NCBI RefSeq assembly: GCF_002067035.1
Contig: NZ_MVQB01000027.1
Span: 124,001-188,000, forward strand
DNA from: Methanoregula sp. PtaB.Bin085
GTDB lineage: Archaea; Halobacteriota; Methanomicrobia; Methanomicrobiales; Methanospirillaceae
Length of the DNA stretch: 64,000 bases
Direction: 5' to 3'
Notes under the pieces: generated by a model
The model's input: the letters and a program-made list of their open reading frames with translations, nothing else
What the model was told of the DNA's origin: nothing
Database searches by the model: none
In this document: in pieces, positions 3,132 to 23,517 of the stretch
Layout: every line of letters starts with the position of its first letter
How positions within the stretch are numbered: the first letter of the stretch is position 1
Made by a program: the position numbers and the translations under genes

Positions 3132-3748
3132 GCCGTGATCCCGATCAGGGCCAGGAGTTTCCTCGCCCAGAAAAGTTTCCCGCGCTTCATCGGGTCCACA
3201 TTCTTGTCGTCGAGATTGAATCCCGCAAGCGTGATGGAGGACGCCCCGAGTTCGTCCGCGGCGAAGGCTGCCCGGTCCCCGTCCGTGAACCCCCCGAAGT
3301 TGTAGACCCGCGGGAGGGGTGTGGCCTGCGTGGTTCCCACGACGTTTCCTTTGAACCGGGGGACCCAGTGCTTCAGGAGCGGCATGTTGTCCCCGTGGGC
3401 GTGGATGACGATGATGGTCCCTTCGTTGTTCAGCTCGATGAACCGGTCGGTTGCCCCGTCAAGGTCCGTGAAGATCGCGTCCGGGCAGATGCCGTTTTTG
3501 TCAAGCACCTCGGCAGCAGCATCGGCGGCAAAGACAACACCGGTTATCTTCCCGATCTCGTCTTTGAGGCACGGGGCGTTCCCGCAGACCGTTACCGGGT
3601 TGCCGTCGACCAGCGAGGCGAGGGAGAGGAGGTTATCGCGGTCGAGCAGGGTGGAGAGGAGGCGGCCAGCTTCCTCGTCGGCTGCCCGGTCGAACCCGAA
3701 GTACTCGACGATCTCGGAATAGTACGGTTCCCAGTCAGCGAATTTCAT
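3128..3748 (-). CDS. mptE: MptE-like 6-hydroxymethyl-7,8-dihydropterin pyrophosphokinase
   Basis: A protein of about 206 residues of the DUF115/MptE family, which transfers pyrophosphate from ATP to 6-hydroxymethyl-dihydropterin in tetrahydromethanopterin synthesis. Family-like stretches are visible: GNAPCLKDE, then AADAAAEVL, FTDLDGA, IVIHAHGDN and GFTDGDRAAF. The start is set at the ATG at 3748, with GAGGGA 6-7 nt upstream; a longer frame begins at 3766 but has no ribosome site. Its stop overlaps the start of the radical SAM gene. Function is assigned from family recognition. Confidence 0.88.
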   Translation of the reverse strand: MKFADWEPYYSEIVEYFGFDRAADEEAGRLLSTLLDRDNLLSLASLVDGNPVTVCGNAPCLKDEIGKITGVVFAADAAAEVLDKNGICPDAIFTDLDGATDRFIELNNEGTIIVIHAHGDNMPLLKHWVPRFKGNVVGTTQATPLPRVYNFGGFTDGDRAAFAADELGASSITLAGFNLDDKNVDPMKRGKLFWARKLLALIGITA

Positions 3749-5266: not shown

Positions 5267-5433
5267 GTACTGATGATGTTGCCTTCCGGATAATTAAGGA
5301 ATTCCTCCCGGTACTGCACGGGAACTGCCCTCGCGTTTTTCGGATACGGACCCGGGAACCCGGGGGATTTTCGTAGTGTTTTTCCGCAACCTTTATTCGG
5401 CATCATCGACCACACTATAAGGCCTAACACAGC

Positions 5434-5507
5434 GGGTCTGTAGCTTAGTTCGGCATAGCGGCGGACTCTTAATCCGCAGGTCAAGGGTTCAAATCCCTTC
5501 AGGCCCG
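5434..5507 (+). tRNA. tRNA-Lys (anticodon CTT)
   Basis: Acceptor GGGTCTG pairs with CAGGCCC (one T-G wobble). The anticodon stem GCGGA/TCCGC encloses loop CTCTTAA with anticodon CTT. The T arm is AAGGG-TTCAAAT-CCCTT. The discriminator is G at 5507 and CCA is not encoded. No intron. A possible TATA box (TTTATT) lies about 40 nt upstream. Confidence 0.95.
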
Positions 5508-5716
5508 TTTACAGCGATTCGTTTCCTTTTCTGATGTTGCGAATTATCCTGTCGCTCCTGTTGTGCCGGCTTTTCCCCTGCCTGGTTCATGGGACTGGGA
5601 CCATACCGGTGGCGGATGATCATCAGGTTCTCTGATGTCCCGTCCCGGTACTTTATAAATTCCGCATGCAAACACGGTTTTCAGGACAACACTCCCCGTA
5701 ACCCGGACGGTCAGCC

Positions 5717-8596
5717 ATGAAAGTGTCTCTGGTTTCCCTGCTGCGTTCAAATCCCTCTGCAGTACCATTCCTGGTTGCACTGACCCTCGCCATCTCCTTT
5801 GCAGCCAACTTCTGGGGGCTCCTTTACGGGATATCGATCGTGATCCCGCACCTCTTCTATGTTCCGATCATCATTGCGGCATTCTTCTATCCGCGGCGCG
5901 GTACCGTCTTCGCCCTTGTGGTATCCGCCGCCTATTTCCTGATGGTGATCCTCGTCCGGCCCGGGGCGACAGCTGATATTGTGTCGGCAGCGGCACGCTG
6001 TGTCATCTTCGTTTTCATCGCCCTCATCATCTCCTTTCTCTCCGAACGGGTCGCAGCAAGGGAACAGGCGCTGGTCCGGGCACAACAGGAATGGGAGAAC
6101 ACCTTCAACGGGGTTCCCGACCTGATAGCCATCATAGGAACAGACCACCGGATCCTCCGCGTCAACAAGGCCATGGCAGACAGCCTCGGGATGAACCCCG
6201 GGGAGGCTGCCGGCAGGTTGTGCTATGAGACGGTCCATGCCTCAGGAACGATTCCCGGTAACTGCCCCCACGCGCTGCTCCTCAAAGACGGAAAAGAGCA
6301 TGCAGCGGAGATCCATGAAGAAAAACTCGGCGGGGACTTCCTTGTCACCGTCTCGCCCCTGCATGACGAGAACGGGAACCTTATCGGCAGTATCCATGTC
6401 GCACGGGATATCACGGAGCGCAAGCAGGTGGAGATCGAACTCCTCCTGCATTCCGAGATCCTGCAGAACATGGCAGAAGGGGTGGCGCTCATCCGCGCTT
6501 CCGACGGCAGGATCGTTTTTACCAACACGCGGTTCAGCCAGCTCTTCGGCTACCCCGAAGGGGAACTGATCGGGCAGCCGGTATCGGTGCTCAATGCTCC
6601 CGACGGGAGAACTCCGGAAGCGATTGCAGAGGAGATCGAAGAAAAACTTGACAAGTACAGTATCTGGGCCGGGGAGATCAGGAACCGGAAGAAAGACGGG
6701 GAGCTGTTCTATTGCCATGCCATCGTCTCGACATACATTCACCCGGTCTATGGAAAGGTCTGGATCACGGTGCACGAAGATATCACGGAGCAGAAGAGGA
6801 TACAGGCGGCCCTTGCCGGGACCGAGCAGCGCTACCGGCAGCTGTACGAAGGGATGCGCGATGCCTTCGCCAGTGTCGATCTTGACGGCAGGATCACCAA
6901 CTTCAACACGGCATTCGAGAGGCTGATCGGGTATACCCATGACGAGATTTTCAGGCTCTCCTACCAGGACCTGACACCGGAACGGTGGCAGGCTGCCGAA
7001 GCAGAGATCCTCCGGACGCAGGTGATGACAAGGGGATATTCGGATATTTACGAAAAAGAGTACCGGCGCAGGGACGGGACTATCGTTCCCGTGGAGCTCC
7101 GGACGGCCCTCATCACGGGAGACGATAAAAGCCCGCAGGGAATGTGGGCGATCATCCGGGACATCACCCCGAGAAAAGAGGCCGAGCGGGCGCTCCAGGA
7201 GAGCGAAGAGAAGTACCGCACCATTATCAACGAAATCCAGGATATCTTTTACCGGACCGATACGGAAGGCAGGATCACGATGCTTTCCCCGTCAGCGGCA
7301 AAACTTGCGGGATACGATTCGCTGGACCAGCTTATCGGGAAGCCGGTCTCCATGGTGTATGCAAATCCTGCTGACCGGGAAAAGCTGATTGCAGCCCTGC
7401 AGGAGAGCGGCGCGGTCTATGCGTTCCCGCTGGATCTCAGGGTCAGCGACGGCTCGATCCGGCACGTCACCGTGAGCAGTCATTTCTTCCGTGACGCCAA
7501 GGGAACAATCCTTGGCGTCGAAGGAGTGATCCATGACATCACGCCCCTGCGGCAGGCCGAGGACGCCCTGCGCGAGAGCGAGGAGCGGTACCGGACCATC
7601 ATCGAGACGATCGAGGACGTCTATTTCCGTTTCGACGGGGAGAGCCGGCTTGTCATGGTCAGCCCTTCAGCCGGCCCGATGTTCGGGTATGATTCCGCAA
7701 AAGAGATGATCGGGCTGCATGCCGCAGATATCTGGAGCGATCCGGCTGCACGGATACAGATGATCGAAACCATGCGAAAACAGGGCGGTTTTGTCCGGGA
7801 CTGGGAGGCGGAGCTGAAGAAAAAGGACGGGTCCGTTTTCTGGGCATCGATCAGCGGCCACATGCACCATGACAGGGACGGCAGGTATCTCGGGAAGGAA
7901 GGGATCATCAGGGACATTACGGAACGGAAGAAGATGGAGGATGCCCTGAAAACCGCCCTCACCAAGCTGAACATGCTCTCCTCCATCACCCGCCACGATA
8001 TCCTGAACCAGATCATGGGCCTGCGCACGTTCCTTGAACTGTCCCGCGAGGATCTCAAAGGAACGAAATTCGAAGATTATCTCCAGAAGGGCGACCTGGC
8101 TGCCGGGGCTATCCAGCGGCAGATCGAGTTCACGAAATTCTACCAGGATATCGGGGTGAATGCCCCGAAATGGCAGAACGCGGCAGAGGTCATCCGCGAG
8201 GCGGCCGGCCAGCTCAGCATTCCCGCGTCCATCGGCCTGAAGATAGAGGTCGGCGACGTGGAGGTCTTTGCCGATCCCCTGATCGTGAAAGTATTCTTCA
8301 ACCTCATGGAGAATTCCCTCCGGCACGGGGAGCGGGTGACGCAGATGTCCTTTACATCTCGGGCGTCGGCAGAAGGGCTTGTCATCACGTACCGGGACAA
8401 CGGCACCGGGATCTCCGCAGAGGACAAGAAGATGCTCTTCCGGAAAGGGTTCGGCAAGCATACCGGCCTAGGCCTCTTCCTCTCCCGGGAGATCCTCGCG
8501 ATCACCGGCATTACCATCACCGAGAACGGTGAGCCGGGAAAGGGCGTTCAGTTCGAGATGACGGTCCCGCACGGGGCGTTCCGGTCCATCCCGTGA
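5717..8596 (+). CDS. Membrane-anchored sensor histidine kinase, 5 PAS modules
   Basis: A 959-residue kinase. Residues about 10-115 hold several membrane helices. Five PAS/PAC modules follow (about 125-235, 240-365, 366-490, 495-615, 620-740), each ending in a DIT-type PAC signature such as RDITERK. The dimerization/phosphoacceptor helix carries SSITRHDILNQ with His760. The ATPase domain shows the N box NLMENSLRHGE, then DNGTGIS and GKHTGLGLFLSREILAITG. The first PAS module has CY (C169) and NCP (C183), a cysteine pattern also seen in the giant kinase downstream. No receiver domain. It probably autophosphorylates on His760 in response to membrane-proximal or cytoplasmic ligands; signal unknown. 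A tRNA gene and a short promoter region precede it. Confidence 0.93.
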   Translation: MKVSLVSLLRSNPSAVPFLVALTLAISFAANFWGLLYGISIVIPHLFYVPIIIAAFFYPRRGTVFALVVSAAYFLMVILVRPGATADIVSAAARCVIFVFIALIISFLSERVAAREQALVRAQQEWENTFNGVPDLIAIIGTDHRILRVNKAMADSLGMNPGEAAGRLCYETVHASGTIPGNCPHALLLKDGKEHAAEIHEEKLGGDFLVTVSPLHDENGNLIGSIHVARDITERKQVEIELLLHSEILQNMAEGVALIRASDGRIVFTNTRFSQLFGYPEGELIGQPVSVLNAPDGRTPEAIAEEIEEKLDKYSIWAGEIRNRKKDGELFYCHAIVSTYIHPVYGKVWITVHEDITEQKRIQAALAGTEQRYRQLYEGMRDAFASVDLDGRITNFNTAFERLIGYTHDEIFRLSYQDLTPERWQAAEAEILRTQVMTRGYSDIYEKEYRRRDGTIVPVELRTALITGDDKSPQGMWAIIRDITPRKEAERALQESEEKYRTIINEIQDIFYRTDTEGRITMLSPSAAKLAGYDSLDQLIGKPVSMVYANPADREKLIAALQESGAVYAFPLDLRVSDGSIRHVTVSSHFFRDAKGTILGVEGVIHDITPLRQAEDALRESEERYRTIIETIEDVYFRFDGESRLVMVSPSAGPMFGYDSAKEMIGLHAADIWSDPAARIQMIETMRKQGGFVRDWEAELKKKDGSVFWASISGHMHHDRDGRYLGKEGIIRDITERKKMEDALKTALTKLNMLSSITRHDILNQIMGLRTFLELSREDLKGTKFEDYLQKGDLAAGAIQRQIEFTKFYQDIGVNAPKWQNAAEVIREAAGQLSIPASIGLKIEVGDVEVFADPLIVKVFFNLMENSLRHGERVTQMSFTSRASAEGLVITYRDNGTGISAEDKKMLFRKGFGKHTGLGLFLSREILAITGITITENGEPGKGVQFEMTVPHGAFRSIP

Positions 8597-8777: not shown

Positions 8778-11700
8778 ATGTACTCTCTCCTCTACGTTGA
8801 CGATGAACAGGGACTGCTGGACCTTGGCCAGCTTTTTCTGGAAAGTGACGGGGAGTTCAGGGTCACCACAGCCATCTCCGGAAATGAGGGGCTGCGGTTT
8901 CTTGCCGGACAGGAATTCGATGCCGTGGTCTCCGATTACCAGATGCCGGAGATGAACGGCATCGAGCTGCTGAAGAAGGTCCGGAAATCGTACGGGAATA
9001 TCCCGTTCATCCTTTTCACCGGCAGGGGCAGGGAAGAGGTGGTCATCGAGGCCATCAACAACGGCGTTGACTTCTACCTGCAGAAAGGGGGGGATCCCAA
9101 AGCCCAGTTCGCCGAGCTTGCCCACAAGGTACGGCAGGCCGTAACGCGGAGGCGGGCGGAGGCTGCCCTCTCGGAGTCAGAGAAGCGGCTGTCGGATATC
9201 ATCAACTTCCTCCCGGATGCGACCTTTGCCATCGATACCGCCGGTGTTGTCATTGCCTGGAACCGGGCAATGGAACGCATGACGGGTGTCAGGTCGGAGG
9301 ACGTGCTCGGGAAAGGAGATTACGAATACGCGCTGCCGTTCTATCACGAGCGCCGGCCCCTGCTCATCGACCTTGTCCTCAATGACAGCCCCGAAATTGC
9401 GAAGAAATACCCGTTCGTGAAACGCGAGGGGAAGACACTCATCTCCGAGATTACGATCCCGCACTTCAATGACGGGAAGGGCGCGGCACTCTGGTTCACC
9501 GCATCTCCCCTCTATGACCGGAAGGGAACCGTTGCAGGAGCTATCGAGTCGATCCGTGAGATCACCGAGAGGAAGCGGGCAGAGACCGCGCTCAACGAGA
9601 GCGAGCGGCGGTTCCGCGAACTGGCCGACCTGCTCCCACAGGGAATCTACGAGGCGGATAACGACGGACTGATAACCTATGCCAACCGGCTGGCACTGGA
9701 GATGTTCGGGTATACGGCAGAGGAAATCGAAACGGGAGTCTACGCCCTGAACGTCATTGCACCCGTGGACCGGGAACGCGCTGCTGCGGTTTTTTCCCGG
9801 TTGACCGCAACAGGAGACCACGGAGGGGCGGGTCTGGAGTATCTCGCGGTGCGAAAAGACGGCACCCTGTTTCCGGTCTCCATCTTTTCCTCGCCTGTAT
9901 ATCGTGATGGCAGGATTGCCGGCTTACGGGGTGTTATCGAGGATATCACCGAACGGAAAAAGGCAGAGGAGAGGCTGATCTCTGCAAACAGGGAGTATAC
10001 CAGCCTGCTCGACCAGATCCAGGATATTTATTACTTCAGCAACATGGAGGGGCGGCTCGTCAGGGCAAGCCGTTCGCTGGCGACACTCCTCGGATACGAT
10101 GACATCGCCGAATGTATCGGGCGCAGCATCGCGGATGACTTCTACCTGAACCCGTCCGACCGGAAACCGCTCCTTGACGAGATCCGGCGGAACGGCAGGG
10201 TGACCGGCTATGAAATCCGGTTAAGGAAAAAAGACGGGACGCCGGTATTTGTCGAGGTCAGCAGCCACCTTGCCTATGATCATGAAGGAAAGGTAACCGG
10301 TGTTGAAGGAACGTTCCATGACATCACGGCCCGGAAAAAAGCGGAGGAGGAGCTCCGGGCTGCCTACGAGCAGCTGACTGCAAACGAGGAGGAACTGAAA
10401 GAGCAGTACAACGAGCTGGCCGCGAGCGGGCAGCGGATCCGCGAGAGCGAACAGAAGTACCGGACCGTCTTTGAGACTACCGGGACCGCCATGCTGATGA
10501 TTGAGGACGATACAACCATCAGCCTTGTCAACAGCGAATTCTGCCGCCTGAGCGGTTACACGCAGGAAGAGATCGAGAATAAGAAGAAATGGACGGAGTT
10601 CGTTGTTCCGGAAGATCGCGAGCGGATGCTTGCCCGGCACCGCGGGAGACGGACAGATACAGCCGTTGCCCTGAAACAGTACGAGTTCCGGTTTGTCAGC
10701 CGTTCCGGAGAAATCCGGCACATCCTCCTCTCCATCGACATCATCCCCGGCACGAAAAAGAGTGTTGCCTCCCTTCTCGATATCACGGAGAGGAAGAAGG
10801 CTGCCGATGAACTCCAGGCCGCGAACGAACAGCTCGCTGCAACGGGCGAGGAACTCCGGGCGCAGTACGAGGAACTTGCCCTGAGCGAGAAACGGGTCCG
10901 GCTCAGCGAGGCGCGTCTTAAGTACATGCTCGGGTTCTATGAGTTTGCACAGAAGAGCGAGAAGGAACTTATCGCGTATGCCATCGAGGGGGCGGGGATC
11001 GTCACCGGAAGCCCGCTCGGGTACCTGGCCTTCCTGAACGATGATGAGACCGAGCTTTCCATGTATGCATGGTCAAAGAACGCCATGGCCGAATGTTCGA
11101 TGGTGACAAAACCGATCGTCTACCAGGTCGAGAAGACCGGGCTCTGGGGCGAGGCCGTGCGGCAGCGGCGCCCCGTCATCACGAACGATTATGCTGCCCC
11201 GAACCCGGCCAAGAAAGGATATCCCGAAGGGCACCCGCATATCGTCCGGCACATGAATGTCCCGGTCATCGACAACGATCACATCGTGCTCGTGGCAGGA
11301 GTCGCGAACAAGGAGAGCGGGTATACAGAGACTGATGTGAACGAACTGCTCCTTCTTGTGCAGGGGCTCTGGGAGAATCTCAAGCGGAGGCGTGCCGAGG
11401 AGATAAAACAGGAGAGCGAAGCGAAGTTCCGGAACGTCATTGAGAATGCACCGGTCGGCATGCACTTTTACTCGCTCGAAGCGGACGGGTCGCTTATGTT
11501 CCGGGGTGCCAATCCCGGTGCTGACCGGATCCTTGGTGTCGACCATACCCGGTTCATCGGAAAAACCATCGAGACGGCGTTTCCCAGTCTTGTCACAACA
11601 GAGATCCCGGCACATTACCGCAGGATTGCCGCTGAGGGCGGAACCTGGCAGACGGACCAGATCACCTACGACGGCCAGCAGATCCGCGGGGCCTTCGCGG

Positions 11701-14700
11701 TGACCGCTTTCCAGACCAGGCCCGGTGAAATGATTGCCACGTTCGTGGATATCACCGCCCGCAAAAAGACCGAGATGGCGCTCCGGGAAGCATACGAGCA
11801 GCTCACCGCAAGCGAGGAGGAACTCCGAGAGCAGTACGACTCCCTTGCCTCTGCGGAAGCAGAGATCAGCGCCCGCCGCAGGCAGCTCGAGGAGATCGCC
11901 TCCAACGTGCCGGGGGTTGTCTTCCAGTTCTTTGCCCGCCCGGACGGCAGCAGGGGATTGTACTATGCCGGCAGCCATGCACGGGAGATCTTCGGTCTCG
12001 AACCGGATTTGGATAACTTCTTCTCCGCCTTCACTGACGGTGTCCACCCGGATGACCGGGAGCGTTTCCTTGCCTCGATTGATGAAGCGGTCGGGCAGAG
12101 GGCTGACTGGCACTTCGAAGGGCGCTTTATCAGGGCATCGGGGGAGATCATCTGGTTTGAGGGGAGATCCACGCCGGTTTCCCGCGGGGACGAGCTCGTA
12201 TTTTCCGGCGTCCTTTCGGATATCACGGGCAGAAAGAAGATGGAAGCGGCAATCCTTGAGAGCGAGGAGCGCTACCGTTCCCTTGTTGAACTCTCACCGG
12301 TTGCCGTGGTTGTCCACAGCAGGGATAAGATCCTCTTTGCCAACCCGGAGGCTCTCCGTCTTGTCGGGGCAACAACACAGGAGGAGGTTGTGGGCAGGGA
12401 CATTTTACCCTTCATCCACCCTGACGACCGCGCTATGGCGAGGGAAGATTTCCGCCTGCTGTATGAAGAGGGCCGGACAGTACCGCTCAAGGAAGAGCGT
12501 CTCCTCCGGCTCAATGGGGAACCCTTCAATGTCGAGGTGACCGCCTCACCGATCCAGTTCCAGGGGGGATCGGCAGTCCTTGTGGTGTTCCGGGATATCA
12601 CCCGCCGCAGGCAGGCCGAGGCTGCGCTTGCCGAGAGCGAGCGGAAGTACCGGACGGTCTTCGAGACGGCAGAAGAGGGTATCTGGATTGTCGATGCCGG
12701 ATTCAGGACCGTCTCTGCCAACCGGAAAATGCAGGAGTTGTTTGGTTATACCGAAGAGGAGATGAGGGGGCGCCCGGTCTGGGATTTCGTTCCTTCGGAT
12801 GAGGCAGAGTCGGTGAAACTGGAGCTCTCCCGGAGGCCGCAGGGGATTCCCGGCCGTTACGAGCGCGGGTGGGTCAGGAAAGACAGTTCGATCATCTGGT
12901 GCCTGACCTCCGCAACACCGCTCTTTTCCCCGTCGGGAGAGTTCCTCGGATCGTTCGGGATGTTCACCGATATTACCGAACGCAGGCGGGCGGAAGATGC
13001 CCTCCGTGCAAGCGAGAAGAAATACCGCCTGCTCGTCGAGAATATTCCCTTCGGCATCACGCTGATCGATGCAGATCACCGGATCGTTATGTCGAATACC
13101 GCCCAGGGGCAGATGTTCCAGACGGATGAAAGATTATGGCCGGGGCGGTACTGCTACCGGGAGTTCGAGAAGCGCGATACCGTCTGCGCGCATTGTCCCG
13201 GAACGAAGGCCATGGCCACAGGTGTCTGTGAGGTGGTGGAAACCGAAGGAGTACGGGATGACGGAACAAGGTTCCATGCCCGCATCCATGCAATCCCCCT
13301 GCCGGATGATGAGGGAAAGGCAACGAGATTTATCGAAGTCGTCGAGGATATCACCGAACGGAAGAAAGCTGAAGATGCCCTCCGGCAGGATGAGGAGAAA
13401 TACCGTACCCTTATCGAGACTACCGGAACCGGTTACGTCATCATCGACCAGGACGGACACGTGCTTGATGCAAATCCCGAGTACGTGCGCCTGACCGGCC
13501 ATTCGCGCCTTGAAGAGATCACCGGCAGGAACGTGATCGAATGGACAGCGGAACATGAAAAGGAGAGAAATGCAGAAGCGGTCCGGCAGTGCCTGCGCGA
13601 CGGGTTCATCCGGAATTTCGAGATCGATTATGCGGGCAGGGACGGCACAATCATCCCGATCGAGATCAATGCAACGGTTCTCCGTTCAGAAGGGTCTGTC
13701 CACATCCTGACTCTATGCCGGGACATCAGTGACCGGCAGAAAATCCAGGACGCCCTGAAAACAAGTGCCGAAGATTACCAGACCCTCCTGCAGACAGCCA
13801 TGGACGGGTTCTGTATCATCGGCATGGACGGGGCGATCATCGATGTCAACGAGGCTTTCTGCAGATCGCTCGGATACTCCCGCGATGAGGCACTTGCCCT
13901 TTCACTCCGTGACGTGGAAGCCAGGGAGACTGATGAAGATACCTCCCGCCATATGGGGACTATCCTCAGAAAAGGATATGACCGGTTCGAAACACAGTGG
14001 CGGCGGAAGGATGGCAGGATTGTCGATACCGAGGTCAGTGTTCTTTACACCGGCACGCACGGGGGTCGTTTTATCACGTTCAGCCGAGACATCACGGAAC
14101 GCAGGAATGCGGAACATGCGCTGCGTGAGAGCGAAGCCAGGTTCCGGGCAGTCATCGACCAGTCCTTCCAGCTGATCGGCCTGATGACCCCTGACGGTAC
14201 CCTGATCCATGTAAACCGGGCCGCACTTGCACTCATCGGGGCCTCCGAACCCGATGTTGTCAACCGGCCGTTCTGGGAGACTCCGTGGTGGGCGCATTCA
14301 GAAGAACTCCGGGAAAAACTCAAAGATGCCATCAGGCGGGCTGCATCCGGCGAGACCGTGCGGTTCGAGGCAACCCACCCGGCAGCAGACGGGCACCTTG
14401 CGTACATTGATTTCTCGGTAAAACCGGTCGTGGACCCGGATGGCAGGATCCGCTACCTGATTCCCGAAGGCCGGGATATCACGGAGATAAAGCAGACGGA
14501 ACGTGCACTGCAGGCAAGCGAAGAGCAGCACCGGATCCTTGCCGGGCTCCTTGATCTGATACCCGCGTCGGTCACCGTCCATGATGCGGAGGGCAGGTTC
14601 CTGTATGCGAACCAGAAAACCTTTGAATATCACGGATATACGAAGGACGAATTCTACCGGATCAACCTCCATGATCTGGATGTGCCGGAGAGCGAGAGAC

Positions 14701-17700
14701 TGATCAATGACCGTATCCGCGAGCTGCGTGAACGGGGATCGGCATCGTTCGAGACACAGCATTTCCGGAAAGACCGGTCCCAAATCCCTCTCCTCATCAA
14801 TGCCATGATGACAACCTGGGGTGGAGAACCGGTTATCCTCAGCATTGCAACAGACATCACTGAGCACAGGAATATCCGGAATGCCCTGCAGCAGAGCGAG
14901 GAGAAATACCGCACGCTGGTCGAGTCATCGTTTGACGGCATCGCCATCCACCAGGACGGCGCCGTCGTCTATGTCAACCGCACGGGAGCAATGCTTCTCG
15001 GTTCCGAGGACCCGGAGGTTTTTATCGGAAAACCTGCCATCAGCATCATCGCCCCGGCATTCAGAGAAACGATCGCGAAGCGGATACAGGAATCTGCCGA
15101 AAAACCCCTCGGTCTTCTCCGCGAACAGTTCCTGAAGCTCGACGGGACACCCATCGATGTCGACGTCATGACATCCCCCACGACATGGAACGGGCGACCG
15201 GCTTCGTATGTCACCTTCCGTGACATCACTGCACAAGTGAAAGCCGAGGAAAGTCTTCGCGAGAGCGAGGAGAAATTCCGTACGCTGGTGGAAGTCAACC
15301 GCGATATTATCTATTCGCTGGGCACCGACGGAACGATCCTGTATATCAGCCCCCAGACGGAGACGCAACTCGGGTACCGGCCCGATGAGATGATCGGGCA
15401 GAACTTTGCCAATTACATCCATCCTGACGATCTCGGGACACTTCTGAGCCACATACGGGAGCATGCCGGAACCGGCACGGACATCCAGGCAGACCGGTTC
15501 CGTGTACGCAGGAACGATGGCGCATACCGTTGGTACGAGGACAAGTCAATATATATATCGGATCACCGCGGCAGCCGGATTGTCGCGGGGACGATCCGGG
15601 ACATCACCGATGAAAAGGCTGCACAGGATGCGCTGCGCGAGAGCGAGGAGAAGTTCCGGACACTGGTCGAGACCACCAGCGATTTCATCTGGGAGGTTGA
15701 TACCACAGGAAAATACACGTATGTCAGCCCCCAGGTCAGCCGGATTCTCGGGTACGAACCCGGTGAACTTATCGGGAAGACTCCCTTTGAACTCATGCCT
15801 CCCGACGAGGCTGAACGGATCTCTGCCGAGTTCAATCTGCTTGTCCGGAGCGGTCTCCCGATAGCGGGGCTGGTGAACAGGGCCCTGAGAAAAGATGGTT
15901 CGGTTGTCATCCTTGAGACAAGCGGTACAGTCCGGACAGCCGATGACGGCCGTTTCCAGGGATACCGCGGGATCGACCGGGATATCACGGAGCGGACGAA
16001 GACCGAGGAGGCCCTGCGCGAGAAGACCGAGGAGCTCAACCGGTTCTTCTCGGCGAGCCTCGACCTGTTCTGTATCGCGGATACCGACGGGCATTTCCGC
16101 CGCCTGAACCCGGAATGGGAGAAGACGCTGGGGTACACCCTTGGCGAACTGGAAGGCCACCGGTTCCTCGACTTCGTCCACCCGGATGACCTTCCTACCA
16201 CCCTGTCAGCAGTAGCGGATCTCAGAGGACAGAAGAATGTCCTCAATTTTACGAACCGGTTCCGTCATAAGGACGGGACCTACCGGTGGATCGAGTGGCG
16301 ATCCCTGCCGATGGGCAGCCTGATCTTCGCAGCAGCCCGGGATATCACCGCCCGCCATGACGCTGCCGAACGGACCGCCCGCATCAGCGCGCTCAAGCAG
16401 GATTTGCTCCGGACCGCACCCCCTGAGGAAAAACTGAAAAGAATCACGGATGCATTCGTTGATATTTTCGGTGCCGACTTTGCACGGATCTGGATCTCGG
16501 GGCCCGGGGATCTGTGCAGCCGGGGATGCATCCATGCGGACGTGACAAAAGGGCCTCATATCTGCAGGGACCGCACGAAATGCCTTCACCTCATCGTGAG
16601 CTCCGGGAGGTACACCCATACTGACGGGGATCATCGCAGGGTGCCGTTCGGGGCGTACAAGATCGGGAGGATTGCCACGGGGCAGGAATCACAGTTCATC
16701 ACCAACGATGTCACCCGCGATCCCCGTGTCCATAATCATCCCTGGGCAGCTTCCCTCGGGCTTGTTTCCTTTGCCGGTTTCCGGCTGGTCTCAGCGGATG
16801 GAAAGCCGATCGGCGTCCTTGCCTTCTTCAGCAGGTTGCCGGTACTGCCGGAGATAATGGATGATCTCGCCGATATGGCCACTACAGCATCGCAGGTTAT
16901 CCAGACCGGCATGGCCGAACAGGCACTCCGGGAGAGCGAGAGCCGCCTCAGTTCAATCCTGCATGGTTCACCGGTCCTCCAGTTCGTCATCGACCGTGGC
17001 CACCGGGTCATTTCATGGAACCGTGCGCTCGAAGAGTACAGCGGCATCCGGGCAGATGACATTATCGGAACGGACATGCAGTGGCGTGCGTTCTATGCGG
17101 AAAAACGCCCGGTTCTTGCAGACCTGCTGGTCGACCAGGATATCGAAAAAATCGATACATGGTATGCGGGGAAGTTCGCAAAGTCACGATATGTTGAGGG
17201 TGCCTATACCGCAACTGATTTCTTCCCGCACATGGGTACTTCCGGTAAATGGCTCTCGTTCACTGCTGCCCCGGTACGGGACGAGATGGGGACAATCATC
17301 GGCGCAGTGGAAACTCTCGAGGATATCACCGAGCGCATCAATGCCGAGAACGCGCTCCGCCAGAGCGAGGAATGGGCCCGCACGATCCTGGATACCGCCC
17401 AGACCGGCATCATTATCGTTGATGCGGATACTCACCGCATCCTCGAAGCCAACAAAAAGGCACTTGACCTCCTCGCTCTTCCCGCTGAATCGGTGACCGG
17501 TTCGGTCTGTCACCGGTTCATCTGCCCTGCTGATGAGGGAAAATGCCCGGTTACTGACTGTAAACAAACGGTGGATACATCGGAACGGATCCTGATAACG
17601 GCGGACGGAACGAGATTGCCGGTCCTGAAGACTGTCGTGCAGGTAACCATGGGTAACAGGGACGTTCTTGTCGAATCGTTCGTCGATATCTCCGAGCATA

Positions 17701-18353
17701 AGCGGTCGGAGTCCGCTATCCGGGAGGCCAACCGGAAGCTCAACCTGCTCTCCAGCATCACCCGGCACGATGTCGCCAACCAGCTCACGGTCGTGCACGG
17801 CTATACGCAGCTGGCGGCAATGAAAGAACCTGACCCGGTTGTGAAGGATTTCCTTGCCAAGATCGAGGCTGCGGTGGTGACGATCCAGCGCCAGATCGAG
17901 TTCACGAAGCAGTACCAGGAACTGGGGGTTCACGCACCGGCATGGTTCAATCTCGGCGACGTGATACGCAAAGCACGGCCCGGGAACGTCCGGCTCCGGT
18001 GCTCCTGCGATACCTATGAAGTATTTGCCGACCCGATGATCGGCCGGGTCTTTTACAATCTGTTCGACAACGCGATGAAGTATGGTGAGCATGTCACTCT
18101 GATCACAGCCGGGTGTAAACAGCAGGGGGATGAACTGCTTGTCACGTTTGCCGACAACGGAGTCGGGATCCCGCTTGACGAGAAAAGGAAGATCTTCGAG
18201 AAAGGATACGGGAAGAACACGGGGTTCGGCCTCTTCCTTGCCCGGGAGATCCTGGCAATCACCGGCATCACGATCCACGAATCCGGGAAGGAAGGCAAGG
18301 GGGCCCGGTTCGAGATCGTTGTGCCAAAGGGGGCGTTCAGGAAGAGATCCTGA
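8778..18353 (+). CDS. Giant hybrid sensor kinase: REC, 19 PAS, 2 GAF, histidine kinase
   Basis: About 3191 residues from the ATG at 8778, chosen because MYSLLYVDDE matches the start of the paralogue at 19282; the frame is open to 8703. Domains: receiver 1-118 (acidic DDE, D53, DYQMPEMNG); PAS1-3 (137-523); coiled coil; PAS4 (560-674); coiled coil; GAF1 (713-875); PAS5-6 (882-1155) with a coil between; PAS7-17 (1165-2531); Cys-rich GAF2 (2536-2713); PAS18-19 (2723-2978); phosphoacceptor helix with SSITRHDVANQ (His2997); ATPase with NLFDNAMKYGE, DNGVGIP and GFGLFLAREILAITG. No membrane segment, so cytoplasmic. PAS modules end in DITERK-like repeats. Modules 9 and 19 and GAF2 carry clustered cysteines. 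No output domain or separate regulator is adjacent. The frame is uninterrupted across 9.6 kb. Signals are unknown. Confidence 0.93.
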   Translation: MYSLLYVDDEQGLLDLGQLFLESDGEFRVTTAISGNEGLRFLAGQEFDAVVSDYQMPEMNGIELLKKVRKSYGNIPFILFTGRGREEVVIEAINNGVDFYLQKGGDPKAQFAELAHKVRQAVTRRRAEAALSESEKRLSDIINFLPDATFAIDTAGVVIAWNRAMERMTGVRSEDVLGKGDYEYALPFYHERRPLLIDLVLNDSPEIAKKYPFVKREGKTLISEITIPHFNDGKGAALWFTASPLYDRKGTVAGAIESIREITERKRAETALNESERRFRELADLLPQGIYEADNDGLITYANRLALEMFGYTAEEIETGVYALNVIAPVDRERAAAVFSRLTATGDHGGAGLEYLAVRKDGTLFPVSIFSSPVYRDGRIAGLRGVIEDITERKKAEERLISANREYTSLLDQIQDIYYFSNMEGRLVRASRSLATLLGYDDIAECIGRSIADDFYLNPSDRKPLLDEIRRNGRVTGYEIRLRKKDGTPVFVEVSSHLAYDHEGKVTGVEGTFHDITARKKAEEELRAAYEQLTANEEELKEQYNELAASGQRIRESEQKYRTVFETTGTAMLMIEDDTTISLVNSEFCRLSGYTQEEIENKKKWTEFVVPEDRERMLARHRGRRTDTAVALKQYEFRFVSRSGEIRHILLSIDIIPGTKKSVASLLDITERKKAADELQAANEQLAATGEELRAQYEELALSEKRVRLSEARLKYMLGFYEFAQKSEKELIAYAIEGAGIVTGSPLGYLAFLNDDETELSMYAWSKNAMAECSMVTKPIVYQVEKTGLWGEAVRQRRPVITNDYAAPNPAKKGYPEGHPHIVRHMNVPVIDNDHIVLVAGVANKESGYTETDVNELLLLVQGLWENLKRRRAEEIKQESEAKFRNVIENAPVGMHFYSLEADGSLMFRGANPGADRILGVDHTRFIGKTIETAFPSLVTTEIPAHYRRIAAEGGTWQTDQITYDGQQIRGAFAVTAFQTRPGEMIATFVDITARKKTEMALREAYEQLTASEEELREQYDSLASAEAEISARRRQLEEIASNVPGVVFQFFARPDGSRGLYYAGSHAREIFGLEPDLDNFFSAFTDGVHPDDRERFLASIDEAVGQRADWHFEGRFIRASGEIIWFEGRSTPVSRGDELVFSGVLSDITGRKKMEAAILESEERYRSLVELSPVAVVVHSRDKILFANPEALRLVGATTQEEVVGRDILPFIHPDDRAMAREDFRLLYEEGRTVPLKEERLLRLNGEPFNVEVTASPIQFQGGSAVLVVFRDITRRRQAEAALAESERKYRTVFETAEEGIWIVDAGFRTVSANRKMQELFGYTEEEMRGRPVWDFVPSDEAESVKLELSRRPQGIPGRYERGWVRKDSSIIWCLTSATPLFSPSGEFLGSFGMFTDITERRRAEDALRASEKKYRLLVENIPFGITLIDADHRIVMSNTAQGQMFQTDERLWPGRYCYREFEKRDTVCAHCPGTKAMATGVCEVVETEGVRDDGTRFHARIHAIPLPDDEGKATRFIEVVEDITERKKAEDALRQDEEKYRTLIETTGTGYVIIDQDGHVLDANPEYVRLTGHSRLEEITGRNVIEWTAEHEKERNAEAVRQCLRDGFIRNFEIDYAGRDGTIIPIEINATVLRSEGSVHILTLCRDISDRQKIQDALKTSAEDYQTLLQTAMDGFCIIGMDGAIIDVNEAFCRSLGYSRDEALALSLRDVEARETDEDTSRHMGTILRKGYDRFETQWRRKDGRIVDTEVSVLYTGTHGGRFITFSRDITERRNAEHALRESEARFRAVIDQSFQLIGLMTPDGTLIHVNRAALALIGASEPDVVNRPFWETPWWAHSEELREKLKDAIRRAASGETVRFEATHPAADGHLAYIDFSVKPVVDPDGRIRYLIPEGRDITEIKQTERALQASEEQHRILAGLLDLIPASVTVHDAEGRFLYANQKTFEYHGYTKDEFYRINLHDLDVPESERLINDRIRELRERGSASFETQHFRKDRSQIPLLINAMMTTWGGEPVILSIATDITEHRNIRNALQQSEEKYRTLVESSFDGIAIHQDGAVVYVNRTGAMLLGSEDPEVFIGKPAISIIAPAFRETIAKRIQESAEKPLGLLREQFLKLDGTPIDVDVMTSPTTWNGRPASYVTFRDITAQVKAEESLRESEEKFRTLVEVNRDIIYSLGTDGTILYISPQTETQLGYRPDEMIGQNFANYIHPDDLGTLLSHIREHAGTGTDIQADRFRVRRNDGAYRWYEDKSIYISDHRGSRIVAGTIRDITDEKAAQDALRESEEKFRTLVETTSDFIWEVDTTGKYTYVSPQVSRILGYEPGELIGKTPFELMPPDEAERISAEFNLLVRSGLPIAGLVNRALRKDGSVVILETSGTVRTADDGRFQGYRGIDRDITERTKTEEALREKTEELNRFFSASLDLFCIADTDGHFRRLNPEWEKTLGYTLGELEGHRFLDFVHPDDLPTTLSAVADLRGQKNVLNFTNRFRHKDGTYRWIEWRSLPMGSLIFAAARDITARHDAAERTARISALKQDLLRTAPPEEKLKRITDAFVDIFGADFARIWISGPGDLCSRGCIHADVTKGPHICRDRTKCLHLIVSSGRYTHTDGDHRRVPFGAYKIGRIATGQESQFITNDVTRDPRVHNHPWAASLGLVSFAGFRLVSADGKPIGVLAFFSRLPVLPEIMDDLADMATTASQVIQTGMAEQALRESESRLSSILHGSPVLQFVIDRGHRVISWNRALEEYSGIRADDIIGTDMQWRAFYAEKRPVLADLLVDQDIEKIDTWYAGKFAKSRYVEGAYTATDFFPHMGTSGKWLSFTAAPVRDEMGTIIGAVETLEDITERINAENALRQSEEWARTILDTAQTGIIIVDADTHRILEANKKALDLLALPAESVTGSVCHRFICPADEGKCPVTDCKQTVDTSERILITADGTRLPVLKTVVQVTMGNRDVLVESFVDISEHKRSESAIREANRKLNLLSSITRHDVANQLTVVHGYTQLAAMKEPDPVVKDFLAKIEAAVVTIQRQIEFTKQYQELGVHAPAWFNLGDVIRKARPGNVRLRCSCDTYEVFADPMIGRVFYNLFDNAMKYGEHVTLITAGCKQQGDELLVTFADNGVGIPLDEKRKIFEKGYGKNTGFGLFLAREILAITGITIHESGKEGKGARFEIVVPKGAFRKRS

Positions 18354-18461: not shown

Positions 18462-19034
18462 ATGAAATTTTCAGGAAGCAAGACCGAAAAGAACCTGCTC
18501 GCGGCGTTTGCCGGCGAGTCGCAGGCACGGAACCGTTACAGTTTCTTTGCCAGCATTGCACGGAAGGAAGGGTACGAGCAGATCGCCGCGGTATTCGAGG
18601 ACACGGCGCAGAACGAGCGGGAGCATGCCAAGCTCTTTTTTTCGCAGCTGAAGGGCGGCGACGTTGAGATCACTGCCGCTTACCCGGCAGGTGTTATCGG
18701 GACGACAAAAGAAAACCTCAAAGCTGCGTACGAAGGGGAGAAGATGGAATGGGGCACGCTGTACCCTGCCTTTGCAAAGACCGCGGAGAAGGAGGGGTTC
18801 CTCGAGATCGGGCGTCTCTTCTCCCGCATCGGGAAAGTCGAGGCCAGCCACGAGGCGAGGTATAAGAAACTCTACCAGAACCTGGTGAAGGGGACCGTCT
18901 TCAGGTCTGCAAACGAGACAAAATGGCACTGCCGGAACTGTGGCTATGTTCACGAAGGGAAAGCTGCCCCGGCAAAATGCCCGGTCTGCGACCACCCGCA
19001 GGCATACTTCGAGCTGAACGCAGAAAACTATTAA
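18462..19034 (+). CDS. rbr: Rubrerythrin
   Basis: A 190-residue protein. Residues 1-145 form the ferritin-like diiron domain with Glu ligands in AGESQARNRY, QNEREHAK, EGEKMEWG and VEASHEARY. The C-terminus is a rubredoxin-like FeS4 site with CRNCGYVHEG and CPVCDHPQAYF. It reduces peroxide and is a typical oxidative stress protein of anaerobes. The start is the ATG at 18462 with AGAGGT about 10 nt upstream and homology from MKFSGSKTE; the frame continues upstream without evidence. It has its own promoter with a palindromic operator candidate and a T-run after the stop, so it is probably monocistronic although it lies between two sensor kinase genes. Confidence 0.96.
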   Translation: MKFSGSKTEKNLLAAFAGESQARNRYSFFASIARKEGYEQIAAVFEDTAQNEREHAKLFFSQLKGGDVEITAAYPAGVIGTTKENLKAAYEGEKMEWGTLYPAFAKTAEKEGFLEIGRLFSRIGKVEASHEARYKKLYQNLVKGTVFRSANETKWHCRNCGYVHEGKAAPAKCPVCDHPQAYFELNAENY

Positions 19035-19043: not shown

Positions 19044-19281
19044 ACTGTTTTGGGGAGATGGTTCCACACGGTGACAAAACCCGGCAGGCTTTCCGATCCG
19101 GAGATCCTTGTCTGTCAGTCCGATCGATATTCATCGAGGTCGGGTAAGGAAACGTGCGGTCATGTCTTCCGCTGCCATCAGGCTCCTGGAATATCTTCAG
19201 TATTCATCATAACATTCAATACCATTGTTGCCGATTCTGACATACTGAATATCCCGGCCCGGAATGTACCGGTTTCTTCGG

Positions 19282-22200
19282 ATGTTTTCCATACTCTATG
19301 TTGACGATGAGCCCGGCCTGCTCGAAATTGGTAAACTGTTCCTCGAGCAAAGCGGGCAGTTTACCGTAGAAACGCTCACCTCTGCAACGGAGGCCCTCGA
19401 GATCCTCCGGAAAAAACGGTACGATGCCATCATCTCCGATTACCAGATGCCCGTTATGGACGGCATCGGCTTTTTAAAAAACGTCAGGGCTTCGGACAAG
19501 AATGTTCCGTTCATCATCTTCACCGGCCGCGGCCGCGAGGAGATTGTCATCCAGGCATTCAATGAAGGGGCGGATTTCTACCTCCAGAAAGGGGGAGAGC
19601 CGCTTTCGCAGTTTGCCGAGCTCGGGCACAAGATAACGAAGGCTATCCTCCAGAGGAGGGCCGAGGCAAGTATCCGGGACCATGAACGCCGCGAGGCAGA
19701 CATCATCAACTTTCTTCCCGACGCAACCTTTGCCATCGATACCCGGGGAGTCCTTATCGCATGGAACCGGGCCATGGAGAAGATGACCGGTGTCAGTGCG
19801 GACAGTGTGCTCGGGAAGGGAAATTATGAATACGCGCTCCCGTTCTACCACGAGCGCCGGCCCCTGCTGATCAATCTTGTCCTTGACGATGACCCGGCCA
19901 TTGCGGAAAAGTATCCCTTTGTAAAAAGGGAAGGAAAGACGCTCTTCTCAGAGATCACGATCCCGCACTTCAACGAGGGCAGGGGAGCGGCGCTCTGGTT
20001 CACGGCATCTCCCCTGTACGACAAGGACGGTGCGATTGTCGGGGCCATCGAATCGATCCGCGAGATCTCGGACTGGAAACGGGCAGAGCAGGCACTGAAC
20101 GAGAGCGAACGGAGGTTCCGCGATCTTGCGGACATGCTGCCGCTTGCCATCTACGAGACAGACGAAAAAGCAAACCTGACCTATGCAAACAGGATGGCTT
20201 TCGAGCTCTTCGGGTATACCCCGGAGATCCTCAGAACGGGGATGAACGTGATGGCCATGCTCGCACCGGAAGACCGCGATCGGGCACGGGCGCGGCTCGG
20301 CCGGATGATCAGCGACGGAAAAGTCCGGGAAGACAATATCGAATACCGTGCGCTCCGGAGGGACGGCAGCACGTTTCCCGTCTCCATCTACTCGTCTCCT
20401 GTCCTCCGGGACGGGAAAACTGCCGGTGTGCGGGGCATCATCATCGATATCACGGAGCGCAGGACCGCGACAGACAATCTCCATGCCAGCGAGGAGAAGT
20501 ACCGCACGGTCTTCGAAACAACAGGTACTGCGACGGTCCTTATCGAAGACGACGGTACAATCAGCCTCGCAAATTCCGAATTCGCGCGGCTGAGCGGATA
20601 CCCGAAGGGCGAGATCGAGAACCGGAAGAAATGGACAGAGTTTGTCGTAGAAGAAGATCTTGAACGGATGCTTGCCCAGCACCGGCTGAGACGGATAGAC
20701 CGGAAACACGCCCTTACGCATTACGAGTTCCGCTTCAGGTCGCGATCCGGTGAGATCCGGGACATCTACCTGACCATCGATGTCATTCCCGGCACGACGA
20801 AAAGTGTTGCATCGCTCCTGGACATCACGGAGCGGAAAAATGCTGAACGCAGCCTCGTTGCAGCAGACCAGGAGTACAAAAACCTGCTCGACCAGATCCA
20901 GGATGTCTATTACCGGAGCGACGCCGAAGGACGGCTGGTGAAGGTAAGCCGGTCCTGGGCAACCCTGCTCGGGTACGACGATGTCGGGGAATGTATCGGG
21001 AGGCGCATTGCGGAAGACTTCTATTTCACCCCCGGGGACCGCAAAGCATTCCTCGATGAGATCTACCGGAACGGGAAGGTCACCAGTTATGAAGTCATGC
21101 TCAAAAAGAAGGACGGAACCCCGGTCCTGGTAGCAACCAGCAGCCATCTGTATCGCGATGCTGCCGGGAACGTTGCCGGTGTTGAAGGTACGTTCAGGGA
21201 CATCACCAAACAGAAGCAGCAGGAGAACATCCTCCGTATCCAGCGTGATCTTGGCATGCGGCTCCAGGAGCTCAGGGACAGGGATGAGCTCCTGGATGCA
21301 TGCCTTGACGCGGCAATACGGATCTCGGAGATGGACGCGGGCGGTATCTATCTTGTTGACGAGGCAACCGGTTCCGTGGACCTTGCCCTCTCAAAAAATC
21401 TCGGGAAAGACTTTGTTGAATCCGTGTCCCGTTACGCACCAGGTTCAGCGAATGCTCAGATCGTTTTTTCCGGAAAGCCCCTGTACACAACGAACGCGCC
21501 GGAGGGTGTTCCTCATTCGGAAGTTCAGGATCAAGAGGGGCTCCGGGCCCTTGCTGTTGTCCCTGTCTTCTCCCGGGGCCGGATTGTCGGGTACCTGAAT
21601 ACCGCATCGCATACGCGTGACGATATCCCGCATGAATCGCGGATCGCCCTCGAGATGATCGCCACCCAGATCGGTTCAGCCATCGGCCGTGCAAAGGCCG
21701 ATGAAGCCCTGATCGCCAGCGAACAGCGGTACCGGAACATTGTTGAGGACCAGACAGAATTCATCTGTCGTTTCCGGCCGGACGGGACGCATGTCTTTGT
21801 CAACGATGCGTACTGCAGGTACTTCGGCCTTTCGCGGGAGGAGATCATCGGGCACCGCTTCCGGCCGGATATCCCGCCGGCAGACCGGCCTGCCGTCCGG
21901 CAGTTTTTTATGTCCCTGACACCCGAACACCCGGTCGATATCATCGTTCACCGGATCGCGATGCCGGATGGCAGTATCCGCTGGCAGCGCTGGAGCGACC
22001 GGGCCATATTCGATGATACCGGAAAACCGGTTGAGTACCAGTCGGTGGGCCGGGATATCACCGAGACAAAAGAGGCCGAGGCGGCTATGCTCGAGAGCGA
22101 GGCCCGGTACCGGAGCCTTTCGGAAGCATCGCAGGACCTGATCTTCGTTATCGACCGGAACGATCGTATCGTGTACGTAAACGGGAGTGCTGCAAACATG

Positions 22201-23517
22201 TTCGGCTGTACCGTGGATAAGATCCTTGGCAGAGAACGAAACACCCTGTTCCCGCCGGATGTTTCTGCCGGACAAAAGAAAGCAATCGACCGCGTCCTTG
22301 CAACCGGCAAAGGATTCCGCAGCATGGGGAAACTGAGCTTCAGGGGGCAGGAACGATGGTTCGACCATTCGCTGATGCCGATCTGTGATGCGTCGGGAGT
22401 GCCATTTCAGGTCGTTGGCATATCCCGCGATATCACGGAACTGAAAAATATCGAGGAAGCACTCCGCCAGAAGAGCGAGGATCTCGATTCCCGAAACCGG
22501 CTCATCAGCACGCTTCTCGATACGGTCCCGATCGGGATCTTCATGGTCGAGGCCCCGACGGGCAAACCGATCATTGCCAATTGCGAGGCCACACGGCTCC
22601 TCGGGCGCGGGATCCTGCCGGATGCAACTGAGCAGAACCTTGCCGAAGTGTACGAGGCTTACCGGGAGGGGACGTCGCAACGCTACCCGATGCATGAGAT
22701 GCCGATCGTCCGCGGCATGTATGGCGAAAACCGCCATATCGACGATATGATTGTAGTCCGTCCCGATGGTACGACCGTCCAGCTGGAGGTATTCGGAACA
22801 CCGCTCACCGACACCCGGGGCCAGGTCACGGCAAGTCTTGTCAGTTTCCTTGATATCACGGACCGGAAACGGGCAGAAAAGGTCATCCGGGAGGCCAACC
22901 GGAAGATCAACCTCCTGACCAGCATTACGCGGCACGACGTGGCAAACCAGATCACGGTCCTGCGGGGATATGCAAGGATAGCAATGATGAAAAAGCCCTC
23001 CCCCGAGATCACCGAAATCCTGCAGAAGATCGACGAGGCCATCTCTGCGATCGCGCACCAGATCGCGTTCACGAAGGCGTACCAGGAGCTTGGCGTGCAG
23101 GCCCCGGGCTGGCAGAGCATCCGCGACATCATTGCGAGGCAGAAATCCGACGGCATATCCCTCACGTGCACCTGCGATGCCGAGATCTATGCAGATCCCA
23201 TGCTCGAGCGGGTCTTCTTCAACCTCATCGACAACGCGGCCCGGCACGGCGGAAATGTGACAGCGATCACCGTCAGCTGCCGGCCTGCTTCCGACACCCT
23301 TACCATCATTGTCTCCGACAACGGGGTCGGAGTCCCCTCCGACCAGAAGGAGAGAATCTTTGACAAGGGATTCGGGAAGCACACGGGATACGGTCTCTTC
23401 CTTGCCCGCGAGATCCTCGCGATCACCGGTATCACCATTCACGAAACCGGTACACCGGGAAGGGGTGCGGTCTTCGAGATTACCGTTCCGAAGGGTACCT
23501 ACCGGCTGAAAGCATGA
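19282..23517 (+). CDS. Hybrid sensor kinase: REC, 7 PAS, GAF, histidine kinase
   Basis: About 1411 residues from the ATG at 19282 (MFSILYVDDE, matching the giant kinase); an in-frame ATG at 19264 is the alternative. Order: receiver 1-115 with D53 (SDYQMPVMDG); PAS1 (about 135-270), nearly identical in key stretches to PAS1 of the giant kinase; PAS2; PAS3; PAS4; GAF (about 650-810, with GGIYLVDEATG); PAS5-7 (about 815-1205); phosphoacceptor helix SSITRHD-like TSITRHDVANQ (His1218); ATPase with NLIDNAARHGG, DNGVGVP and GYGLFLAREILAITG. Soluble. PAS3 and PAS4 correspond to PAS4 and PAS3 of the giant kinase, in swapped order. Signals and partner unknown. The ribosome site is weak. Confidence 0.93.
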   Translation: MFSILYVDDEPGLLEIGKLFLEQSGQFTVETLTSATEALEILRKKRYDAIISDYQMPVMDGIGFLKNVRASDKNVPFIIFTGRGREEIVIQAFNEGADFYLQKGGEPLSQFAELGHKITKAILQRRAEASIRDHERREADIINFLPDATFAIDTRGVLIAWNRAMEKMTGVSADSVLGKGNYEYALPFYHERRPLLINLVLDDDPAIAEKYPFVKREGKTLFSEITIPHFNEGRGAALWFTASPLYDKDGAIVGAIESIREISDWKRAEQALNESERRFRDLADMLPLAIYETDEKANLTYANRMAFELFGYTPEILRTGMNVMAMLAPEDRDRARARLGRMISDGKVREDNIEYRALRRDGSTFPVSIYSSPVLRDGKTAGVRGIIIDITERRTATDNLHASEEKYRTVFETTGTATVLIEDDGTISLANSEFARLSGYPKGEIENRKKWTEFVVEEDLERMLAQHRLRRIDRKHALTHYEFRFRSRSGEIRDIYLTIDVIPGTTKSVASLLDITERKNAERSLVAADQEYKNLLDQIQDVYYRSDAEGRLVKVSRSWATLLGYDDVGECIGRRIAEDFYFTPGDRKAFLDEIYRNGKVTSYEVMLKKKDGTPVLVATSSHLYRDAAGNVAGVEGTFRDITKQKQQENILRIQRDLGMRLQELRDRDELLDACLDAAIRISEMDAGGIYLVDEATGSVDLALSKNLGKDFVESVSRYAPGSANAQIVFSGKPLYTTNAPEGVPHSEVQDQEGLRALAVVPVFSRGRIVGYLNTASHTRDDIPHESRIALEMIATQIGSAIGRAKADEALIASEQRYRNIVEDQTEFICRFRPDGTHVFVNDAYCRYFGLSREEIIGHRFRPDIPPADRPAVRQFFMSLTPEHPVDIIVHRIAMPDGSIRWQRWSDRAIFDDTGKPVEYQSVGRDITETKEAEAAMLESEARYRSLSEASQDLIFVIDRNDRIVYVNGSAANMFGCTVDKILGRERNTLFPPDVSAGQKKAIDRVLATGKGFRSMGKLSFRGQERWFDHSLMPICDASGVPFQVVGISRDITELKNIEEALRQKSEDLDSRNRLISTLLDTVPIGIFMVEAPTGKPIIANCEATRLLGRGILPDATEQNLAEVYEAYREGTSQRYPMHEMPIVRGMYGENRHIDDMIVVRPDGTTVQLEVFGTPLTDTRGQVTASLVSFLDITDRKRAEKVIREANRKINLLTSITRHDVANQITVLRGYARIAMMKKPSPEITEILQKIDEAISAIAHQIAFTKAYQELGVQAPGWQSIRDIIARQKSDGISLTCTCDAEIYADPMLERVFFNLIDNAARHGGNVTAITVSCRPASDTLTIIVSDNGVGVPSDQKERIFDKGFGKHTGYGLFLAREILAITGITIHETGTPGRGAVFEITVPKGTYRLKA

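Follow-up and report, generated by a model that had tools for sequence, protein, structure and literature searches.

Archaeal histidine kinases of the REC-HisK class have the order REC-(PAS/GAF)n-HisKA-HATPase, with an N-terminal receiver (REC) carrying a conserved aspartate and C-terminal DHp and HATPase domains, and a cytoplasmic location is common in the class, though not universal. No member had been experimentally characterised as of the survey of Galperin et al. 2018 (PMC5847659), and its description of the class does not cover how large the arrays are, how they arose or whether their linkers keep phase. Among methanogen kinases, MsmS and RdmS of Methanosarcina acetivorans contain several PAS or GAF modules (PMC6944256, PMC11784639), and heme- or thiol-based redox sensing was proposed for them (PMC6944256) and later revised with respect to RdmS autophosphorylation (PMC11784639); these kinases (MA_type 2) have no H-box. 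In the engineered kinases YF1 and YHF the heptad phase of the linker controls signalling, and YHF integrates two sensors (PMC6798134), while in LvrB, a Rec-controlled histidine kinase, the N-terminal REC controls the DHp domain by way of a signalling helix (PMC13269768).

The kinase described here is encoded at 8778-18353 (forward strand) of a window of 64,000 nucleotides, the whole stretch of Methanoregula sp. PtaB.Bin085 DNA that was analysed, and comprises 3191 amino acids (360 kDa). It shares with the REC-HisK class the domain order, the N-terminal phosphorylatable REC, the PAS/GAF array and the C-terminal DHp/HATPase core, and no transmembrane segment is found in it (maximum 19-residue hydropathy 1.44); it differs in having 19 PAS and two GAF modules, whereas its orthologues at the same chromosomal position have 2-8 PAS. 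Like the redox-sensing MsmS and RdmS it has conserved cysteines in sensor modules, and unlike them it has an intact H-box with an invariant histidine, which places it outside MA_type 2; its N-terminal REC and its much larger number of modules also set it apart from them. Nor is it a hybrid histidine kinase of the bacterial type, as its sole REC lies at residues 5-108 and not at the C-terminus. YF1 and YHF are engineered proteins with one or two sensors, whereas the phase rule described here holds at natural junctions between the PAS domains of long arrays; LvrB shares the N-terminal REC, but its mechanism as described operates without a PAS array between REC and DHp. The class is known and the giant is an extreme member of it, and yet its mode of construction can be demonstrated and is unusual: new are the mosaic origin of the array, the syntenic slot with 2-8-PAS orthologues, and the heptad phase of linkers in which the breakpoints fall.

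Anatomy and rank of the kinase

The frame runs uninterrupted from ATG to stop over 3,191 codons. A GTG lies 75 nt 5' of the ATG in the same frame, yet homology starts at the ATG, and the N-terminus (MYSLLYVDDE) corresponds to that of the orthologue in genome G033 (MLSLLYVDDE). Three routes agree on the number of PAS domains: an HMM derived from this protein detects 19 full domains, NCBIfam TIGR00229 ('sensory_box') matches 19 stretches, and all 19 segments, each scanned alone, score above the curated Pfam threshold for one or more PAS models. Pfam also places the single REC at residues 5-108, the GAFs at 726-868 and 2549-2705, and HATPase_c, part of the single C-terminal kinase core, at 3088-3184. 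With E-values down to 1e-207 the domain matches are beyond chance, and the initial annotation, which had described a single 9.6-kb frame with a receiver, 19 PAS, two GAFs and a full kinase core, is borne out by Pfam, NCBIfam and our own HMM.

The following features are all on the forward strand. The receiver (8778-9113; PF00072, E=3.7e-19) retains D8, D9, the phosphoacceptor D53, T81 and K103. It is followed by a first block of PAS domains (9147-10790), consisting of PAS1 (9147-9569), PAS2 (9567-9953), PAS3 (9951-10331) and PAS4 (10422-10790), then by the Pfam-matched GAF1 (10953-11381) with a conserved Cys773, and by PAS5 (11382-11759) and PAS6 (11850-12227), a block (11382-12227) that belongs to the skeleton common to the slot orthologues. 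The next block (12231-14099) holds PAS7 (12231-12602), PAS8 (12606-12980), PAS9 (12978-13358), PAS10 (13356-13733) and PAS11 (13734-14099); within it PAS9 carries Cys1459, Cys1470 and Cys1473, which are kept in remote homologues. PAS12 (14097-14486), common to the slot orthologues of G033, G030 and G061, precedes a block (14484-16352) of PAS13 (14484-14864), PAS14 (14862-15233), PAS15 (15234-15611), PAS16 (15612-15992) and PAS17 (15990-16352). GAF2 (16422-16892) has cysteines 2580, 2584, 2596 and 2602, invariant in all homologues found, and in the last block (16914-17696), formed by PAS18 (16914-17333) and PAS19 (17331-17696), Cys2911, Cys2916 and Cys2923 of PAS19 are conserved in most homologues. 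The DHp helices (17691-17927) include the phosphoacceptor His2997 (codon 17766-17768), and the HATPase_c (CA) domain (18039-18329) has the DNGVGI and GFGL boxes.

The Pfam HisKA model does not match the giant, the DHp region giving only a weak match to SPOB_a. The H-box is nevertheless present (SITRHDVANQL), its His2997 (RHD) is invariant in 29 relatives, and in 74 of 74 kinases the DIT motif and this histidine are spaced 27 residues apart. ZraS aligns to the core over both DHp and CA. An AlphaFold model of PAS19-DHp-CA shows a DHp hairpin and a CA domain, with YF1 (PDB 4gcz) as the best structural match; the global TM-scores of the model against PDB entries are low, as is expected if the domains are hinged differently.

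In 39 congeneric (Methanoregula) genomes, where 2-9 PAS are usual, this is the longest kinase frame seen. The next longest have 3,066 aa with 18 PAS (genome G005) and 2,800 aa with 16 PAS (L037, placed by the order search in another genus of the same family), followed by kinases of 2,391 aa with 15 PAS (cut at a contig end), 2,420 and 2,340 aa with 14 PAS each, and 2,215 and 2,197 aa with 13 PAS each. The earlier statement that the PAS number is far above the usual therefore holds for the genus, but the kinase is the extreme of a tail and not an isolated oddity, having relatives with 18, 16, 15 and 14 PAS. An order-wide search with PAS8-PAS17 found no other genome that shares the combination, which, with two candidates scored per genome, is weak evidence for uniqueness; in the papers searched we came across no protein with as many PAS domains, which does not disprove that one exists. 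In the genome itself, which is 2.9 Mb in size and 98% complete, matches number at least 150 for PAS, about 62 for HATPase and about 50 for REC. On a 37-kb contig of the same genome, large multi-PAS kinases of 1814, 1516 and 1153 aa are clustered.

A mosaic array in a conserved chromosomal slot

The gene order around the giant is conserved in Methanoregula: Radical SAM, MptE-like, the DHH phosphoesterase TrkA_N-DHH-DHHA1, tRNA-Lys(CTT), kinases, rubrerythrin and FMN reductase. The tRNA-Lys(CTT) (5433-5508, forward strand), found at the same position in 13 of 13 syntenic loci checked, forms the left edge of the slot. It is followed on the same strand by a membrane kinase of 959 aa with five PAS and a HATPase but no REC (5717-8596), a relative of which occupies this position in other genomes, then by the giant and by the syntenic rubrerythrin (18462-19034, 190 aa; NCBIfam NF045767, E=1.4e-82). 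A paralogous REC-7PAS-GAF-HK kinase of 1417 aa (19264-23517, forward strand) lies downstream of rubrerythrin.

The slot kinases that precede rubrerythrin have 634 aa and 2 PAS in G029, 1225 and 5 in G024, 1484 and 7 in G033, 1503 and 7 in G030, and 1650 and 8 in G061, compared with 3191 and 19 in the giant. In the kinase-core tree these six form one clade (support 99/96; 97/94 without G029), and as they also share their position, the same kinase ranges from 2 to 19 PAS; in several genomes the slot contains no kinase. The 18-PAS kinase of G005 occupies the same slot, yet its core falls in the downstream paralogue's clade, indicating that the two giants are convergent. One-to-one orthology between them was rejected, as just 8 PAS have a counterpart of at least 50% identity, their order is partly different and the core clades differ. 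By parsimony on 58 kinase cores, arrays of at least 13 PAS require 7 separate origins. At the G005 locus (L111, 17210-17815) the order DHH-tRNA-kinase-FMN reductase is kept, and no rubrerythrin match was found at the locus or in the rest of the 91%-complete genome. In two further genomes (G006 and G004; loci L174 and L170) the kinases adjoining rubrerythrin appear split over several overlapping frames (REC, PAS, HK), which suggests decay or sequencing errors.

Within the giant no two PAS domains exceed 40% identity, whereas each of the 19 has a relative of 54-78% identity in another kinase; at 50% single linkage they fall into 19 families, every one with members in other proteins, and the modules of the other giants show much the same family pattern. 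The array was therefore assembled by shuffling from a shared pool of modules and not by tandem duplication, which we rejected since neighbouring repeats are not each other's closest relatives. The repeats are thus 19 different imported modules and did not arise by internal expansion. The sources can in part be traced. PAS1-4 match the downstream paralogue at 57-77%, in the order 1, 2, 4, 3; GAF1, PAS5, PAS6 and PAS12 match slot orthologues; and for PAS7-PAS11 most nearest relatives are in the other giants L037 and L111, some modules matching other giants as adjacent pairs (PAS9-10 with modules 10-11 of L037).

The two ends of the protein also have different histories. In a tree of REC-PAS1 the giant groups with the clade of the downstream paralogue (100/99), and its union with the slot orthologues is rejected (AU p=0.00015), while in the kinase-core tree it groups with the slot orthologues (97/94 with G029 left out) and the opposite grouping is rejected (p=0.004). 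By these trees the gene is chimeric, its REC and PAS1 deriving from one kinase lineage and its core from another, and the lineage of the downstream paralogue is the probable source of the N-terminal block. The modules have dN/dS values of 0.08-0.29 in the 16 pairs with measurable dS, only a rough sign of constraint as dS is near saturation (saturated in 3 pairs) and the ratios partly reflect time before recruitment; in triplet comparisons the giant's copies show no consistent excess divergence. The absence of frameshifts had been taken to mean that the length is under selection, an argument that does not survive the comparison with slot orthologues of 2-8 PAS, which shows that length is not conserved. 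It is the modules and the linker phase that are constrained, and not the length of the array.

Linker phase and exchange points

The spacing from the DIT motif to the next PAS was measured at 596 non-redundant PAS-PAS junctions from all loci. The modal spacing is found at 459 of them, and 101 of the 137 others deviate from it in multiples of 7 residues, while the majority of the remainder are off by -4 or 7n+4, shifts corresponding to stutters or stammers, which coiled coils tolerate. When similar sequences were collapsed, 24 of 44 classes were multiples of 7 (p=5e-10), compared with 47 of 773 (6%) among length changes of the PAS core that served as a control. Each of the giant's 16 direct junctions has either the modal spacing (+0) or +28. 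The PAS3-PAS4 linker (10320-10463, forward strand) has the modal length plus 28 residues, i.e., four heptads, and is predicted as a continuous helix of 51 residues, and a second +28-residue linker joins PAS5 and PAS6 (11748-11891, forward strand). The linkers are helical, in support of the coiled coils proposed in the initial annotation, and the phase rule is the expected signature of signalling helices. The sequence of the +28-residue linker (AAYEQLTA-EEELR-QYDEL) recurs in different proteins at about 50 junctions, in the manner of a mobile coiled-coil cassette.

Linker identity was compared between kinases on a scale from background to fully homologous linkers, the pairs not being independent of one another. 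In pairs in which the downstream PAS alone is homologous it is 0.02 (background) in the first third of the linker and 0.55 in the last, and in pairs whose homology is confined to the upstream PAS it has a value of 0.27 in the first third and falls to background over the rest. These gradients indicate that the exchange points of modules tend to fall inside the linkers, where the DNA repeats of the giant gene are also concentrated. We infer that the linker may serve as both a mechanical and a recombination joint.

Signalling, rival readings and output

Based on our data we consider it probable that the protein is a soluble, very large multi-input REC-(PAS/GAF)n-HisKA-HATPase kinase that signals through in-phase helices and was built by cassette exchange. 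It would most likely form a long parallel dimer. The N-terminal receiver would be phosphorylated by another kinase, the 21 PAS/GAF modules would bind small ligands or cofactors or react via conserved cysteines, and receiver and modules together could bias the twist of coiled-coil signalling helices, which would run through successive modules to the DHp helix without a change of heptad phase. The C-terminal core would then autophosphorylate on His2997 and the phosphate would pass to a separate, probably REC-only, regulator. Distal PAS modules may have little effect on the kinase. As to its origin, the starting point may have been a smaller REC-(2-8 PAS)-kinase in the conserved slot adjoining rubrerythrin, into which PAS cassettes would have been exchanged in frame between kinases, with breakpoints inside linker helices.

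That the array is an artefact, produced by repeat expansion in the assembly or by several genes or internal starts taken for one frame, is scarcely credible. The genome is a draft of 63 contigs and the protein is repetitive, but the longest exact repeat inside the gene is 22 nt and the PAS units share little DNA identity, so that short reads are enough to assemble the gene and the collapse or expansion which the initial annotation had named as its refuter is very unlikely. No stop occurs within the 3191 codons, the domains are at most 40% identical to one another, the sole REC is N-terminal and the sole kinase core C-terminal, and kinases with 18 and 16 PAS are found in other public assemblies. 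A fusion of two whole kinases was likewise rejected, as there is no internal REC or HATPase remnant.

Two biological alternatives deserve more weight, although we regard both as unlikely. Linker recombination might add cassettes faster than selection removes them, so that the kinase-proximal modules alone matter and the giant is transient. Array length does vary from 2 to 19 among orthologues, giants arise repeatedly and are not inherited, and the combination is unshared by the other genomes searched (two candidates scored in each); under such neutral accretion, however, one would not expect 9.6 kb to stay open with 19 of 19 modules above Pfam cut-offs, module pairs to keep dN/dS well below 1 with no consistent acceleration of the giant's copies, or the linker phase to be kept at every direct junction. 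Rather improbable, too, is that most modules are non-sensing, dimerising spacers, making the array a scaffold or ruler that separates the receiver from the kinase or recruits partners. PAS domains often act as dimerisation units, and regular 20-residue linkers and extended helices suit a rod. Yet a spacer has no need of diversity, whereas the giant has 19 different, individually constrained families; the slot orthologues manage without 11-17 of the modules, and the conserved cysteine sets of PAS9, PAS19 and GAF2 suggest chemistry. Nineteen mutually different, constrained modules, as read from their sequences, would be easier to reconcile with inputs than with a uniform spacer.

A wider proposal, which we rate as almost as likely as not, is that Methanoregula kinases constitute a natural combinatorial cassette system in which conserved, heptad-phased linker helices act as recombination joints, dozens of kinases exchange PAS domains while keeping both reading frame and coiled-coil phase, kinases of 13-19 inputs are built repeatedly, and one locus went from 2 to 19 inputs with its output core kept. 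In the slot, positional orthologues on related cores form a natural series of 2, 5, 7, 7, 8 and 19 PAS, so that real proteins are at hand for testing how array length affects control of the kinase, a matter that bears on signal passage through more than two or three tandem PAS domains. The linker rule, with length changes in multiples of 7 and exchange points located within the helix, is a concrete design principle for multi-input kinases.

Next to the giant gene we found no response regulator that carries an output domain, and since REC-only proteins are abundant in archaea (PMC5847659, PMC11784639), its output probably goes through separate REC proteins. The neighbouring rubrerythrin, together with the conserved cysteine sets, hints at redox or oxidative-stress sensing, which is our leading but weak guess and agrees with what was proposed for other multi-PAS kinases of methanogens (PMC6944256). 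In 18 of 31 genomes rubrerythrin has a PAS kinase within about one gene; the arrangement occurs in two orientations, and the kinases belong to different clades. In the other 13 rubrerythrin was seen with no nearby kinase; a naive p-value of 2.6e-22 for this adjacency was set aside because the genomes are related and an intervening gene is possible. Rubrerythrin starts at the ATG at 18462, leaving a gap of 108 nt after the giant gene, and in G033 and G061 a C39-like peptidase gene intervenes, and so we do not claim an operon. Given the gap, this peptidase, the abundance of kinase genes in this genome and the 13 genomes with no nearby kinase, the functional link between rubrerythrin and the kinase is weak. 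The peptidase C39-like gene (239 aa) is on the opposite strand between slot kinase and rubrerythrin (L129 5535-6254 and L131 10495-11214), and gaps of the same size separate the two in G030 and G024. Elsewhere in the window, a 510-aa frame (28036-29568) combines chorismate pyruvate-lyase-like and GHMP kinase domains and has homologues in L031 (74%) and L033 (61%); this fusion could presumably link two steps of methanopterin synthesis.
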